Below, one piece after another: positions 7,786-14,639 of a DNA stretch of 64,000 bases. Below the pieces are notes generated by a model that saw only the letters and a program-made list of their open reading frames with translations, ran no database searches and was not told the origin of the DNA. The stretch is from Streptantibioticus silvisoli (lineage in GTDB: Bacteria; Actinomycetota; Actinomycetes; Streptomycetales; Streptomycetaceae): the NCBI RefSeq assembly GCF_027947535.2, contig NZ_JAAGKO020000031.1, positions 1 to 64,000 of the forward strand. The letters run 5' to 3'. Numbering within the stretch: position 1 is the stretch's first letter; the number at the start of each line of letters is the position of its first letter. A program made the position numbers and the translations under genes.

Positions 7786-7798
7786 ACTGAATGTCAGT
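7786..7798. promoter_or_regulatory. Palindrome ACTGAATGTCAGT, candidate operator of glpD
   Basis: ACTGA and TCAGT form a perfect inverted repeat around ATG, extended by imperfect flanks, about 100 bases upstream of the glpD start in an AT-rich island. The location suits an operator. Which regulator family binds it cannot be read from the sequence. Confidence 0.4.
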
Positions 7799-8070
7799 CA
7801 TATTTCCGCTTAGCCTGAAAAAGATCCATCCGGCCAATTACTTGCCGTCATCGGTCGCCCTTACCCGTCCCCGCGCCCTTTTCCTCTCCCACCGCTGCCC
7901 GCCCTCGCCTGTCCCGCGCCCGTCCCGCACCGCTCAACCCGCTGCCCGCCCGGCCACCCGCCGCGAACCGGCCGAATCCCTGTGATCATCACCACGCCCG
8001 GCGGCCCCGCCCGCCGCCGGTCCGGCCGGCCTCTGCCACCGCCGGCGACCACTCCGGGCCGACGGATCTT

Positions 8071-8165: not shown

Positions 8166-9425
8166 ATGCCCGCAGATCTCGCCGTCATCGGACTCCGCCA
8201 CTTCGGCCTGCCCCTCGCCCACGCCGCCACCGCCGCCGGGATCGGCGTGATCGGCTACGAAACCGACCCCGCCGTCGTCGACGGGCTGAACCACGGCCGC
8301 GCCCCCGCCGACGGCCTCACCGCCGCCGAAGTGCGCCGCATGCTGTCCGCCGGCTTCCGGGCCACCGGCGACCCCGCGGTCCTGGGCCGGGCCCGCACCG
8401 CGGTGATCTGCGCGCCGACCGCGCTGGGTGAGGACCGCACGCTCGACCTGACGGCCATCGCCGAGGCGGCCCGCACCCTCGCCGCGCACCTCCGTCCGCA
8501 CACCACGGTCGTCCTCGAATCAACGGCTTACCCAGGAACCACGGAGGAATACCTGCGCCCCATCCTGGAAAGCGGTTCCGGCCTGCGCGCCGGACGTGAC
8601 TTCCATCTCGCCTACTCCCCGAACCGGGTCGACCCCGGCAACCACCGGCACGGCATCGCCAACACCCCCAAGGTCATCGGCGGCCTCACCCCGGCGTGCA
8701 CCGAGGCCGCCGCCGCCTTCTACGGCCGCCTCGCCGAACGCGTCGTCCGCGCCCGCGGCCCCCGCGAGGCCGAAGCGGTCAAACTGCTGGAGACCAACTT
8801 CCGCCACGTCAACATCGCCCTGGTCAACGAGATGGCCGTCTTCTGCCACGACGCCGGCATCGACCTGTGGGACGTGATCCGCTGCGCCGAGACCAAGCCG
8901 TTCGGCTTCCAGCCGTTCCGCCCCGGCCCCGGCGTCGGCGGCCACGACGTCGCCCTCGACCCGAACTACCTCTCCTGCACCTCCCGCACTCTCGGTTACC
9001 CCTTGCGCATGGTCGAGCTGGCCCAGGAGGTCAACGCCCGCATGCCCCGCTACGTGGTGCAGCGCTGCGCGACCCTGCTGAACGAGCACGGCAAGTCCGT
9101 CCGCGGCGCCCGGGTCCTGCTGCTCGGGGTCACCTACAAGGCCGACCTCAACGACCAGCAGGGCTCCCCCGCCCGGGAGATCGGCTCCCGCCTGATGGAA
9201 CTCGGCGCGAGCCTGGGCTACCACGACCCCTACGTCCCCGAATGGCGCCTGCACGACCGCCCCATCCCCCGCGCCGACTCCCTCTGGGAAGCCGCCGGCC
9301 ACGCCGACCTCACCGTCCTCCTCCAGCACCACCACACGTACGACCTCCAGGGGCTGGCCGTGAAGGCGCAACTCCTGCTGGACACCAGAGGAGCGACTCC
9401 GGCGGGGGCCGCTGCGCGGCTTTAG
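8166..9425 (+). CDS. UDP-glucose/GDP-mannose dehydrogenase family protein with altered active site
   Basis: The 419-residue product spans all three domains of the nucleotide-sugar 6-dehydrogenase family (N-terminal NAD domain, central helix, C-terminal substrate domain). Conserved parts include AYSPNRVDPGN, the EAEAVKLLETNFRHVNIALVNE helix (Lys 206, Asn 211), PFGFQPFRPGPGVGGH and LGVTYKADLNDQQGSPA. Two key features differ. The NAD loop reads VIGLRHFG instead of G-x-G-x-x-G, and the nucleophilic Cys after PGPGVGGH is Asp 261. The two-step oxidation to a uronic acid needs that Cys, so the protein is probably not a normal dehydrogenase. GGGGAGGG lies upstream of the ATG. It is convergent with the DUF6049 gene; Streptomyces homologues should show whether Asp is conserved. 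Confidence 0.8.
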   Translation: MPADLAVIGLRHFGLPLAHAATAAGIGVIGYETDPAVVDGLNHGRAPADGLTAAEVRRMLSAGFRATGDPAVLGRARTAVICAPTALGEDRTLDLTAIAEAARTLAAHLRPHTTVVLESTAYPGTTEEYLRPILESGSGLRAGRDFHLAYSPNRVDPGNHRHGIANTPKVIGGLTPACTEAAAAFYGRLAERVVRARGPREAEAVKLLETNFRHVNIALVNEMAVFCHDAGIDLWDVIRCAETKPFGFQPFRPGPGVGGHDVALDPNYLSCTSRTLGYPLRMVELAQEVNARMPRYVVQRCATLLNEHGKSVRGARVLLLGVTYKADLNDQQGSPAREIGSRLMELGASLGYHDPYVPEWRLHDRPIPRADSLWEAAGHADLTVLLQHHHTYDLQGLAVKAQLLLDTRGATPAGAAARL

Positions 9426-9978: not shown

Positions 9979-12900
9979 CTACCCCCGGCCCCCTGCCGAT
10001 GCCGCCGGAGGCCTGCCGTCGCGGCGGCGGACGCGGCGGGCCTGGACGGCTCCGGCGAGCAGGACGAGGAAGGCGCCACTGGCGATGACGCCGACGACCA
10101 ACGGGGACAGCCGGCTGACCTGCACGCGAAAGGTCACCGGGCGCCCCCAGGGGCGGTGGTTGGACGTGGTGTAGAGCTGGGCGGTCATCTCGACCGGCCC
10201 GTTGGCGTACGCGCGGACCTTGACCTGCTCGGTGTGGTTGGAGGCCGGCGGCGCCTCCACGAGCGTGGCCGGGTGCGCGAGGGTCACCCGGTTGGGAGCC
10301 GAGGAGACGACCTTGAGCTCCAGCCCGCCGAGCGGCTGCTGCAACCCGTTCGACACGGTGATGGGGACGCTCGCGGCGTCACCCGCCAGCGTGACCGTGC
10401 CGTGCTTGGGATACAGATGGACGGAAGCGATTGAATTGTCGACATAAGCACGAACACCCCCTGTATAGGACCTCTGGTCGTCGGCGTCACCGCCCACCGC
10501 CGCCACCCGCCACCCGGTGGAGACCGCACGAAGCATCGCCCGGTGCACCGCGTCCGTGGTCCGTCCCGGGTCGGACAGCACCCTGCTGAGGGTGCCCAGG
10601 TCCGGCTGGATCGCGGCTACCGCGGACAAATCGTCCGCCGAGAGCTCCCCGGCCCGCAACCCCTGTGGATAACTCCTGGTTCGCCCCTCTTTTCCCCCGG
10701 TCGATCCTCGCCCCCCGCCCGACACCGCTTCGGGACCGGGACGCTCCGCACGGATGGGCTGCTCTCGGATGCGCTCTTCACGGATGCGCTGCTCACGGAG
10801 GCTCTCGACGGCGGCGCCCTCGTCGGTGACGCCCTCGTCAGCGACGCGCTCCCCTGCGACACGGGACCGCCCCGCGGCACGACCCTCCCCCGCAGCACGG
10901 ACCTCCCCGTTCTTGAAGGCCCCCCCGCCCGAGAAAGCCCCCCTTGCCGAGAAGGCGCCCGTGCGGGCCGCGCCGGTGAGAAAGCCTCCCGGGTGCTCCT
11001 CGCCGGTGCGTTCGGCGCCGGTGTCCCCCTCGGTCGGGCCGGCGCCCGTTCCGCGGTGACCGGCCTCCGCTCCGTTCGGGCCGGGCCGGTCCGGGCCGGC
11101 CGGGCTCCGCGCTCCCGCCACCGCGGCCACCGTCAGGTCGCCCGACGTCCCCGAGCCGAGGTCGTCCAGGCCGACCAGCCGCACCCAGCCGGCGTCGCGG
11201 GCCGACTCCAGGACGGAGGAGAGGACCCGGGCCATCGATCCGGTCATCTGGCGCGGCGGTACGACAAGCAGCCCGCCCCCGCCCGCAGCGCCACCGTCCG
11301 TCAGCGCCAAGTCATTCGCGACGGCACCGAAATCCGGGTCACCGAAATCCGTGTCCCCGGAATCGGAGTTCCCGGAATCGGAGTTCCCGGAATCCGTGAC
11401 ACCGCTCCCCTCACCGGCGGCGCCCCAATCACCGGCGGCGCCCGAACCGTCCGCACCACCGGTCCACGCCGCGCCGCTCCCCGACGTTCCCGAGCCGTTC
11501 CCCACCGACAGGCGGGCCTTCAGCAGGGCCGCCATCAGACTTTGCCGGGCGGAGAGGAGATCGGAGGCGTCGTCGGACGGGCCGGAGAGGGCGGTGGTGG
11601 CGGCGGGGTCGCCCACCAGCGCCGAGGCGCCGCCGCCGAGCGAGACGCGCGACAGCGAGCTGCCGGTGCTCAGACCGCGCCCCGATGCGATGAACACACT
11701 GGATCCCATCGACGCGGCGACCCCCGTGATGCCCGCGTCCAGCGCGCCCCCGTACGGCCACACGACGTCGTCCCGCACCCGGCCGCCCAGTGCCGCGGCG
11801 GTCGCCGCCCCGCCCCAGCGCACCGACTGGCGCAGGACGGAGGCCAGCGCGCCGTTGAGTGCGCCGGCGCCCGGTCCCGACGCCGCCGAGCCCTCAGCGC
11901 CCCCGGCACGCCCACCGCGCCCCACCCCTCCACGAGCCCGGTCCGCATCCGTCAGCCCCGCCCGCTCCACCGGCCCCGCAGCCCTCGCCGGCTCCGCCGA
12001 TCCCGCAGACCGCGCCGCGCCCGAAGACCTCTCCGGCCCGCCGGCCCTCGTCGATCCCGCTGACCCCGCCGCGCCCCTGGACCCCGTTTCGCCCCTGGAA
12101 CCCGCCGCGCTCGCTGACCCCGCCCTCACGGACGCCACAGCCCCCGTCCCGCCGCCGCCCCCACCCCGTCCGCTCCGCGTCGCCGCCTCGGCCGTCCAGG
12201 TTGCGCTCGTCGTTCCGCTCCGCGCGCCGCTGTGGGCCAGGGCGGCCACGTCGGGGTCGGCGTAGGGGAGCGCGACGACATCCTGGTCCTTGACGGCGGT
12301 GCGCAGGGCGCCGAGCCAGCTGGTGGCCGCGGCCCGGCCCGCGCCGGGGCGGCTGAGCTGGGGGTCGCCGGCGTCGCGGACACCGGCCACCCGGTAGCCG
12401 CCCGCCATGCTCCGCGCCTCGTCCAGCAGGGCCGGGTCGACGGTCCAGGTCACCGGCAGGCCGTCCGCCGCGTCGACGAGTTCGCGCAGCCTGCCCGCGG
12501 TGCCGAACGAACCGGCCAGCGCGTCGTCCCGGAAGACGGGCTGCGCGGAGTCGCCCCAGCCGAGCGAGACCGCCTCGGCGTGCGGTTCGTCGGTGACCGG
12601 CCAGAGCACGGCGACGTCGAGCGGGTCACCGTCGACGCCGTCCGGCGCCCACGGGAACCGCGTCGATCCGAGTCCGGAGAGCACGTCGTCAGCGGTCGTC
12701 AGAGCGACACCGAACGAGTGAATGCCGGCGTTCCCCAGCCGGAGGTCGCCGGCCGGGACATGCAGGGTGAAGGACCGCTTCTCCCCCGGGCCCAGCGGAT
12801 CGAGGTCCTGATCGTCGAAGGCCGCGCGGGCCACGCCGTCCACCCGGACGCCCAGCCGCGCGCCCGTGATCCGCTGGGGCGTGGTGTTGACCAGTTGTCC

Positions 12901-13320
12901 GCGGACCGTCAGCGTGTCGTCGCCCTTGGGCCATAGGGGTGACAACGCCTCCAGCGTGACGCGTACGGGGTACGCGTCGGCGTCCGACGTACCCGAGTCC
13001 GTCGTACGGCCCGAAGCCGGCGTGCCGGACGACCGGGCGGACGGCGGGGCAGACGTACTCATACCGGCCGACGTACTCGTACCGGCCGACGTAATACCCG
13101 ACGACGCGGTGCCCGCCACGTTCCGCGCCCTGGCGTCGTCCCTCGCGTCGTCCCTGGCGTCGGCCGGTACGGCGGCCGCGGCCAGCAGCCCCAGCAGCAG
13201 TGTCACCGCCGCCCACCGGTACGACCGCGGCCCGGCCGTCGGTGACGCGTACCGCGGGGAACGCCGCCCGTTCCACCGACGGGTACCCGACCGTGCGGCG
13301 CCGCCGCGTTCCCGGCGCAT
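9979..13320 (-). CDS. DUF6049-type large secreted, membrane-anchored protein
   Basis: This is a 1113-residue protein. An N-terminal signal anchor (YRWAAVTLLLGLLAAAAVPA, about 34-53) precedes a folded domain with VRVTLEALSPLWPKGDDTL and VNTTPQRITGARLGVRVDG. A second region (DVAVLWPVTDEPHAEAVSLG) and a long Gly/Ala/Ser/Arg low-complexity insertion (about 370-880) follow, then a C-terminal beta-rich domain and a terminal helix PLVVGVIASGAFLVLLAGAV with a basic tail. The layout fits the actinobacterial DUF6049 family, whose role is unknown but which lies next to the MurJ-type flippase in other loci. Here it starts 26 bases after the MreB-like gene in the same direction, so the two are probably co-transcribed in an envelope function. 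The insertion is unusually long. Confidence 0.75.
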   Translation of the reverse strand: MRRERGGAARSGTRRWNGRRSPRYASPTAGPRSYRWAAVTLLLGLLAAAAVPADARDDARDDARARNVAGTASSGITSAGTSTSAGMSTSAPPSARSSGTPASGRTTDSGTSDADAYPVRVTLEALSPLWPKGDDTLTVRGQLVNTTPQRITGARLGVRVDGVARAAFDDQDLDPLGPGEKRSFTLHVPAGDLRLGNAGIHSFGVALTTADDVLSGLGSTRFPWAPDGVDGDPLDVAVLWPVTDEPHAEAVSLGWGDSAQPVFRDDALAGSFGTAGRLRELVDAADGLPVTWTVDPALLDEARSMAGGYRVAGVRDAGDPQLSRPGAGRAAATSWLGALRTAVKDQDVVALPYADPDVAALAHSGARSGTTSATWTAEAATRSGRGGGGGGTGAVASVRAGSASAAGSRGETGSRGAAGSAGSTRAGGPERSSGAARSAGSAEPARAAGPVERAGLTDADRARGGVGRGGRAGGAEGSAASGPGAGALNGALASVLRQSVRWGGAATAAALGGRVRDDVVWPYGGALDAGITGVAASMGSSVFIASGRGLSTGSSLSRVSLGGGASALVGDPAATTALSGPSDDASDLLSARQSLMAALLKARLSVGNGSGTSGSGAAWTGGADGSGAAGDWGAAGEGSGVTDSGNSDSGNSDSGDTDFGDPDFGAVANDLALTDGGAAGGGGLLVVPPRQMTGSMARVLSSVLESARDAGWVRLVGLDDLGSGTSGDLTVAAVAGARSPAGPDRPGPNGAEAGHRGTGAGPTEGDTGAERTGEEHPGGFLTGAARTGAFSARGAFSGGGAFKNGEVRAAGEGRAAGRSRVAGERVADEGVTDEGAAVESLREQRIREERIREQPIRAERPGPEAVSGGGRGSTGGKEGRTRSYPQGLRAGELSADDLSAVAAIQPDLGTLSRVLSDPGRTTDAVHRAMLRAVSTGWRVAAVGGDADDQRSYTGGVRAYVDNSIASVHLYPKHGTVTLAGDAASVPITVSNGLQQPLGGLELKVVSSAPNRVTLAHPATLVEAPPASNHTEQVKVRAYANGPVEMTAQLYTTSNHRPWGRPVTFRVQVSRLSPLVVGVIASGAFLVLLAGAVQARRVRRRDGRPPAASAGGRG

Positions 13321-13346
13321 GGGTCAACGCTCCCCGGGGCGCCGCG

Positions 13347-14639
13347 TCATACCTTGAACGCCAGGTACGAGTGCGGGGTGGCGTCCAGCACCGTGCGCAG
13401 CGCCTCGTAGTGCTCGACGCACTTGCCGGTGCCGAGGGCGACGCAGTCCAGTGGCGCGTCGGCGACGATCACCGGGATCTCGAAGGCGCCGCCGATCCGC
13501 AGGTCGAGGCCGGGGAGCAGCGCTCCGCCGCCGGTGAGGACGATGCCGCGTTCCATGACGTCGCCGGCGGCCTCGGGCGGGCAGGCGTCGAGGGTCAGCC
13601 GGACGGCGCTGATGATCGCTTCCAGGGGGTCGTCGATGGCCCGCCTGACCTCCGAGGCGTCGAGTTCCAGCGTCTTGGGCAGTCCGCTGGCCTGGTCACG
13701 GCCCCGGATGCGGCACCGGGGGCCGCTGTCGCCGGTCGGCCCGACGCGGGTGACCAGGCCGACGCCGGCGACCCGATCGCGTTTGCCGGACGGGGACCGG
13801 CGCCGTTCGACCGCGGTATCACCGCCGGATTCGGGGCCTCCGTCACCGGCGACGGGCGCGGGACCGGGGTGCGGGGCGTCGTCCGGTGGGGTGCCGTCGC
13901 CGGTGGCCTGCTCGGGGCAGTCGCGTTCGAACTCACGGTCCAGGGCGCTGAGCCGGTCGGTCCAGTACCCGGGGGGCGCGGCGGAACCGATGGCGAGTTT
14001 GATCTGCTCGGCCGTCTGCTCGCCGATGACCAGTGCGTGTTCGCGGCGGACGTGCTGCGCGATCGCCGCGTCGATGGCGTCGCCGCCGACACGTGCCGAT
14101 CGTGACGTGACCGTGCCGCCCAGCGAGAGCACCGCCACCTCGGTGGTGCCGCCGCCGATGTCCACCACCATGGAGCCGGTCGGTTCACTGACCGGCAGGC
14201 CGGCGCCGATCGCGGCCGCCATCGGTTCCTGGATCAGGTGGACCTCGCGGGCGCCCGCCGTGGTGGCCGCCTCGATGACCGCGCGGCGTTCGACCGACGT
14301 GATACTCGACGGTACGCAGATCACCATCCTGGGGCGGGAGGCACGGCGGCCGCCGACCGCCACCTTGCGCAGGAAGTGGGCGATCATGCGTTCGGCCAGC
14401 TCGTAGTCGGCGATGACCCCGTCCCGCATCGGGCGCAGTGCCACGACGTGGGACGGGGTCCGGCCCATCGTCGACTTGGCCTCCGTGCCGACGCTGATGA
14501 CCTCACGGCTCACGGCGTTGACCGCCACCACTGACGGCTCGTTGAGCACGACGCCCTCACCGCGCGCGTACACCAAGGTGTTGGCGGTGCCGAGGTCCAT
14601 GCCCAGATCACGTCCGGCGAATGACTTCCTGTGCCCCAT
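13347..14639 (-). CDS. MreB/Mbl-like bacterial actin with an 88-residue insertion
   Basis: The 430-residue protein has the MreB ATPase core: DLGTANTLVY (phosphate 1), SVVAVN, EPMAAAIGAGLPV, VVDIGGGTTEVAVLSLGG (phosphate 2), RVGGDAIDAAIAQHVR, IRGRDQASGLPKT and GIVLTGGGALLPGLD (adenosine). MreB usually has about 340-350 residues. The excess is a Pro/Gly/Asp/Arg-rich insertion at about 221-308, between KLAIGSA and CRIRGRD in domain IIB. Such proteins polymerise at the membrane and guide wall synthesis; in streptomycetes MreB acts in spore-wall formation. It is 26 bases upstream of the DUF6049 gene and far from any mreCD genes in this window, so it is probably a paralogue of the canonical MreB. 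The ATG start gives the expected short N-terminus. Confidence 0.88.
   Translation of the reverse strand: MGHRKSFAGRDLGMDLGTANTLVYARGEGVVLNEPSVVAVNAVSREVISVGTEAKSTMGRTPSHVVALRPMRDGVIADYELAERMIAHFLRKVAVGGRRASRPRMVICVPSSITSVERRAVIEAATTAGAREVHLIQEPMAAAIGAGLPVSEPTGSMVVDIGGGTTEVAVLSLGGTVTSRSARVGGDAIDAAIAQHVRREHALVIGEQTAEQIKLAIGSAAPPGYWTDRLSALDREFERDCPEQATGDGTPPDDAPHPGPAPVAGDGGPESGGDTAVERRRSPSGKRDRVAGVGLVTRVGPTGDSGPRCRIRGRDQASGLPKTLELDASEVRRAIDDPLEAIISAVRLTLDACPPEAAGDVMERGIVLTGGGALLPGLDLRIGGAFEIPVIVADAPLDCVALGTGKCVEHYEALRTVLDATPHSYLAFKV

Follow-up and report, generated by a model that had tools for sequence, protein, structure and literature searches.

The gene at positions 8166-9425 of the window (the whole stretch of 64,000 nucleotides from Streptantibioticus silvisoli analysed here) raises the question of what a homologue of the nucleotide-sugar dehydrogenases does when the catalytic cysteine of that family is absent. 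An earlier note had reported Asp in place of this Cys and the sequence GLRHFG in the Rossmann loop, and both are borne out by the translation: the intact forward-strand frame encodes 419 aa with a sole stop at its end, IGLRHFGLPL spans residues 8-17, and D261 takes the catalytic Cys position in the active-site loop RPGPGVGGHDVALDPNYL. Membership of the homologous family (TIGR03026 / UDPG_MGDP_dh) is given by a three-domain profile match over the curated cut-off: the N, central and C domains of UDPG_MGDP_dh (Pfam) all match above gathering scores, and the protein scores 352 bits against the TIGR03026 cut-off of 189.8. TIGR03026 is matched by 34/34 orthologues, whereas scores against the equivalog models fall far under every cut-off. 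Among proteins of known structure, Cap5O (3ojl) and the Pyrococcus horikoshii enzyme 4r16 come closest to the window protein; an AlphaFold model built from an alignment of 34 orthologues was set aside (mean pLDDT 64, central domain below 50). Only two other homologues occur in the same genome, 33% and 28% identical to the window protein, making a hetero-oligomer with a close active paralogue unlikely. A divergent NDP-sugar dehydrogenase homologue of this genome (L002, G000:C42:56025-57044) keeps the Cys and has APRR in place of the PER motif.

The earlier description of all other motifs as well preserved does not survive comparison with active enzymes. Eighteen residues are invariant in 229 NDP-sugar dehydrogenases, with roles assigned to them (PMC4794789), and 4/18 are changed in the window protein (Sp numbering: G9 to Arg, E141 to Asn, N208 to Thr and C260 to Asp), which consequently lacks three sequence hallmarks of an active enzyme, namely the catalytic Cys, the invariant Glu and Asn, and the GxGxxG loop. 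The Lys (Sp K204), Thr (T118) and Asp (D264) are each present. The features and altered residues are located in Table 1. A further canonical Arg is replaced by Gln at position 332, the R of DxRxSP, which presumably contacts NAD in human UGDH; orthologues mostly carry Glu or Gln here.

Table 1 Positions in the window of the gene, its upstream element and the residues discussed in the text
Feature	Window position	Strand	Basis
Cys-less nucleotide-sugar dehydrogenase homologue, 419 aa	8166..9425	+	Translation, profile matches, orthologues
Conserved element CAGTCATATTTCCGCTTAGCCT, probable promoter/operator of the gene	7795..7816	+	Conservation across loci
Asp261 (codon GAC), catalytic Cys position (Sp C260 / human C276)	8946..8948	+	Alignment; roles from PMC4794789
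Asn153 (codon AAC), replaces the invariant Glu (Sp E141) in the P-E-R loop	8622..8624	+	Alignment
Thr210 (codon ACC), at invariant Asn (Sp N208)	8793..8795	+	Alignment
Arg11 (codon CGC), at second Gly of GxGxxG; window's subclade only	8196..8198	+	Alignment
Gln332; Arg in 46/46 canonical relatives, Glu in most orthologues	9159..9161	+	Alignment
Lys325 (Sp K320, UDP diphosphate binding), kept in 138/139 orthologues	9138..9140	+	Alignment; PMC4794789

A clear pattern emerges across the 139 distinct orthologous sequences from Streptomycetaceae, most of which are 68-87% identical to the window protein. Position 261 is occupied by Gly (68), Ala (37), Ser (26), Thr (5), Asp (2) and Cys (1), and on these counts the site now accepts several small residues, Asp among them; the window's codon lies one step from the commonest orthologue codon, GGC, as expected of drift among small residues. 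With Asp in only 2/139 sequences, Asp261 itself is not conserved in the clade, we find no evidence for an Asp-based mechanism, and a role for this residue as a new nucleophile or acid is rejected. Nor does GLRHFG define the clade, being confined to the window's own subclade: GxGxxG is complete, with its second Gly, in 123/139 orthologues, and position 11 is R, H or N in eight and Ala in eight more. The invariant Glu (position 153, Sp E141) is kept in none of the 139 and the Asn (position 210, Sp N208) in two. Thr120 (Sp T118) persists in 36, with drift to A/P, and Lys206 (Sp K204) in 88, with drift to Q/R/N/A/G. Asp265 (Sp D264) is kept in 137 and Thr85 in 128; P152, E203, N221, G258 and G259 are each present in all 139, and D265, N290, K325 and R408 each in at least 137. 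Also retained in the substrate pocket are the GPGVGG loop, R154 and R213. Many orthologues (L109, L209-L210 and L213-L225) also carry a short deletion directly after the former catalytic residue, shortening DPNYL, a further pointer to a relaxed active-site loop.

Among canonical relatives, the Cys, Glu and Asn are all retained in 46/46 close sequences, and the Cys in 52/52 homologues taken for comparison and in 44/44 read from viral contigs. Of the published 18 invariants (PMC4794789), those kept in less than 90% of the clade (G9, T118, E141, K204, N208 and C260) are all cofactor or catalytic residues, whereas the structural and substrate invariants P140, E201, N219, G257, G258, N287 and K320, together with D264, are kept in at least 98%. 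Defining a canonical invariant as a residue present in at least 95% of the 46 canonical relatives, we find that 17/25 NAD or catalytic sites are lost in the clade against 0/20 substrate or core sites (Fisher p ~1e-6), on site lists of our own that were made with knowledge of the clade and whose substrate and core sites were partly chosen by hand, such that the published list offers the cleaner test. As judged from the alignments, the loss is limited to NAD and catalytic positions, and substrate-pocket and core invariants are retained.

In a maximum-likelihood tree, 100 orthologues group together as a single clade, with support 100 and a stem branch of 0.47, nested among Cys-containing sequences, upholding the earlier suggestion of a conserved clade. 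Its deepest branch is L083, a genus-mate of the divergent sequence L230 (G008:C17:73526-74779; genus g9, 68% identity), which was left out of the tree and which keeps the Cys (GGYCTALDP), Asn210 and Lys206, with Thr for Glu153. Another orthologue, L200, keeps Asn210 and has Gly at 261. Because Glu153 is absent from every member, the Glu was probably lost first and the Cys later. The nearest sequences in the tree are Cys-containing actinobacterial sisters (L113-L117, L151-L154; 52-60% identical), which share the GPGVGGH loop but differ in having the full catalytic set and a scattered distribution, and in the one genome compared (G170) the sister lies far from the guaB3 locus.

In 80/80 loci, as far as each contig reaches, the gene sits between glpD and guaB3-guaB-shbA-bldM and is oriented divergently from glpD. 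It is present in 103/103 genomes sampled from g10, the main genus, which is presumed to be Streptomyces because named orthologues are mostly from that genus, while 0/15 genomes from other families of the order reach a comparable score. Among genera without the gene, glpD directly adjoins guaB3 in four and lies 1.2-2.4 kb from it in two; genus g15 has no glpD at the locus, and in genus g12 the stretch read did not extend to guaB3. One genome, G087 (L191, G087:C1:4342000-4356000), lacks both the gene and its upstream element beside glpD, the gene being otherwise present in its genus. On the reverse strand at positions 9979-14639 of the window, separating the gene from guaB3, are encoded a DUF6049 protein of 1113 aa that contains long stretches of low complexity, and an MreB-like protein, both found at this locus in only some relatives. 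A phage or plasmid origin was rejected, the best plasmid and phage matches falling below 60% identity. The median dN/dS of the gene is 0.10, compared with 0.07 for glpD and 0.14 for guaB (Nei-Gojobori, 16 pairs). The earlier note was right to doubt simple decay: the loss is neither unique to this strain nor accompanied by a pseudogene-like dN/dS, being shared across 139 orthologues, and the median dN/dS is ~0.1, on which grounds strain-specific mutation or decay is rejected. Catalytic residues are gone across an orthologous group under purifying selection, the sequence signature of a pseudoenzyme.

The gene also appears to possess regulatory sequence of its own. A conserved element (consensus CAGTCATATnTCnGCTTArCCT) lies upstream of it in 78/80 loci, at a median of 71 bp from the start codon across loci and at 346 bp in the window; its final part is an invariant TA[AG][CT]CT-like block, a possible -10 box. 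A CAATnC block, also conserved, lies ~23 bp before the TArYCT block. No second copy of the element occurs in the genome at three mismatches or fewer, and its membership of a regulon was rejected on this basis. A search beside glpD in 8 genomes that lack the gene, G087 among them, did not find it, leaving a role as the glpD promoter unsupported. The conservation of the element is evidence for what would be maintained, dedicated expression.

With moderate confidence, we interpret these proteins as a clade-wide pseudoenzyme in which the fold and sugar-nucleotide pocket are kept and which would serve as a sensor or scaffold; the non-oxidative, regulatory or sensing role proposed in the earlier note thus appears to be the best reading. 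In human UGDH, the C276A mutant does not complete turnover from UDP-glucose and still oxidises the aldehyde, and mutation of Glu161, the counterpart of the Glu lost here, leaves that enzyme trapped as the thiohemiacetal (PMC3184952, where the mutant is written both E161Q and E161N). Normal four-electron oxidation by clade members is very unlikely, because the Glu, Cys and Asn are gone and the Lys and Thr are drifting, and we infer that dehydrogenase activity is absent. We infer, more weakly, that sugar-nucleotide binding persists and that the role is regulatory; a retained pocket is suggested by conservation of the diphosphate Lys, the C-terminal DTRG Arg, the GPGVGG loop, R154 and R213. Under this scenario, a Streptomycetaceae ancestor would have carried, between glpD and guaB3, a gene for a UDP-sugar 6-dehydrogenase of the TIGR03026 type, and the lineage would then have lost Glu153 and afterwards Cys261 and Asn210, with relaxation of NAD contacts, while the fold, substrate pocket and the gene's own promoter element were retained through the loss of catalysis. 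The protein has most likely kept the ability to bind a UDP-sugar, whether a UDP-hexose or a UDP-HexNAc; this binding may change its conformation or oligomeric state, and the switched protein may act on a partner. Given that pocket occupancy is coupled to neighbouring subunits in active members (PMC3184952), a ligand-switched scaffold or sensor seems the most economical reading. Two observations count against a pseudoenzyme: D265, the general base, and most of GxGxxG are conserved clade-wide, and a fully NAD-free protein need not keep them; moreover, the deep-branching L230 retains the Cys, Lys and Asn.

A possible, if doubtful, alternative is that the protein remains an enzyme with other chemistry, NAD being a tightly bound or transient hydride carrier (for an epimerase, an isomerase, or a two-electron oxidation that goes no further than the C6 aldehyde) via the kept Asp265. 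Conservation of D265 (137/139), Thr85 (128/139) and the complete GxGxxG (123/139) is in its favour, as is the residual aldehyde oxidation by human C276A (PMC3184952), which implies that Cys loss alone leaves some redox chemistry. However, all 139 orthologues lack Glu153 and 137/139 lack Asn210, Lys206, Thr120 and Arg332 (to E/Q) are replaced in many members, the window's subclade has a broken NAD loop, and position 261 drifts among G/A/S/T/D, whereas retained chemistry should fix its residues. It is distinctly unlikely that the protein is a purely structural scaffold, its fold and oligomer kept for protein contacts with no sugar nucleotide bound: approximately 40 positions fixed in the clade are variable in canonical relatives, many in the C-terminal half (e.g. 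W360, Q387, Q395, G396, L397), consistent with new surface contacts, but the substrate-pocket residues K325, R408, R154, R213 and the GPGVGG loop are all retained. That the protein is a normal, active dehydrogenase whose nucleophile has moved, for which homology and the automatic name nucleotide sugar dehydrogenase speak, is highly improbable, since the active-site Glu, Asn, Lys and Thr are likewise lost or drifting, and the Cys residues conserved in the clade (82, 178, 227 and 240) lie outside the active-site loops, those at 82 and 178 being found in many canonical relatives too. Least credible of all is a decaying pseudogene in strain or clade, which the loss of several catalytic residues and the absence of the gene from G087 might suggest, and which is refuted as a general explanation by the dN/dS of ~0.1, intact full-length frames, conserved upstream element and presence in all 103 g10 genomes sampled.

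Among known systems, the clade is closest to the UDP-HexNAc branch of TIGR03026 (WecC, Cap5O 3ojl, P. horikoshii 4r16, TviB), with which it shares full-length three-domain homology, the GPGVGGH loop, R154, R213, K325, R408 and D265, and from which it differs in lacking the catalytic Cys, Glu and Asn in almost all orthologues and in the relaxation of its Lys, Thr and NAD contacts. Pseudoenzymes in general similarly maintain an enzyme fold under selection without the defining catalytic residues (PMC5106787, PMC10211241). We found no description of an NDP-sugar dehydrogenase pseudoenzyme family in open-licence PubMed Central papers, and a report elsewhere is possible.

Several consequences follow for Streptomyces biology. 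Profile-based naming labels the protein a nucleotide sugar dehydrogenase in a very well studied group, and Streptomyces sugar-metabolism models may therefore credit it with an activity that it probably lacks. The Cys-bearing transitional member L230 makes the order of catalytic loss directly testable. A near-universal, single-locus dead NDP-sugar dehydrogenase is also a natural candidate for a sugar-nucleotide sensor, and we tentatively raise the possibility, itself rather unlikely, that this core Streptomyces protein, encoded in the glpD-guaB-shbA-bldM segment beside two Ser/Thr kinases, might sense the cytoplasmic UDP-sugar pool and relay its state to cell-wall or developmental control.
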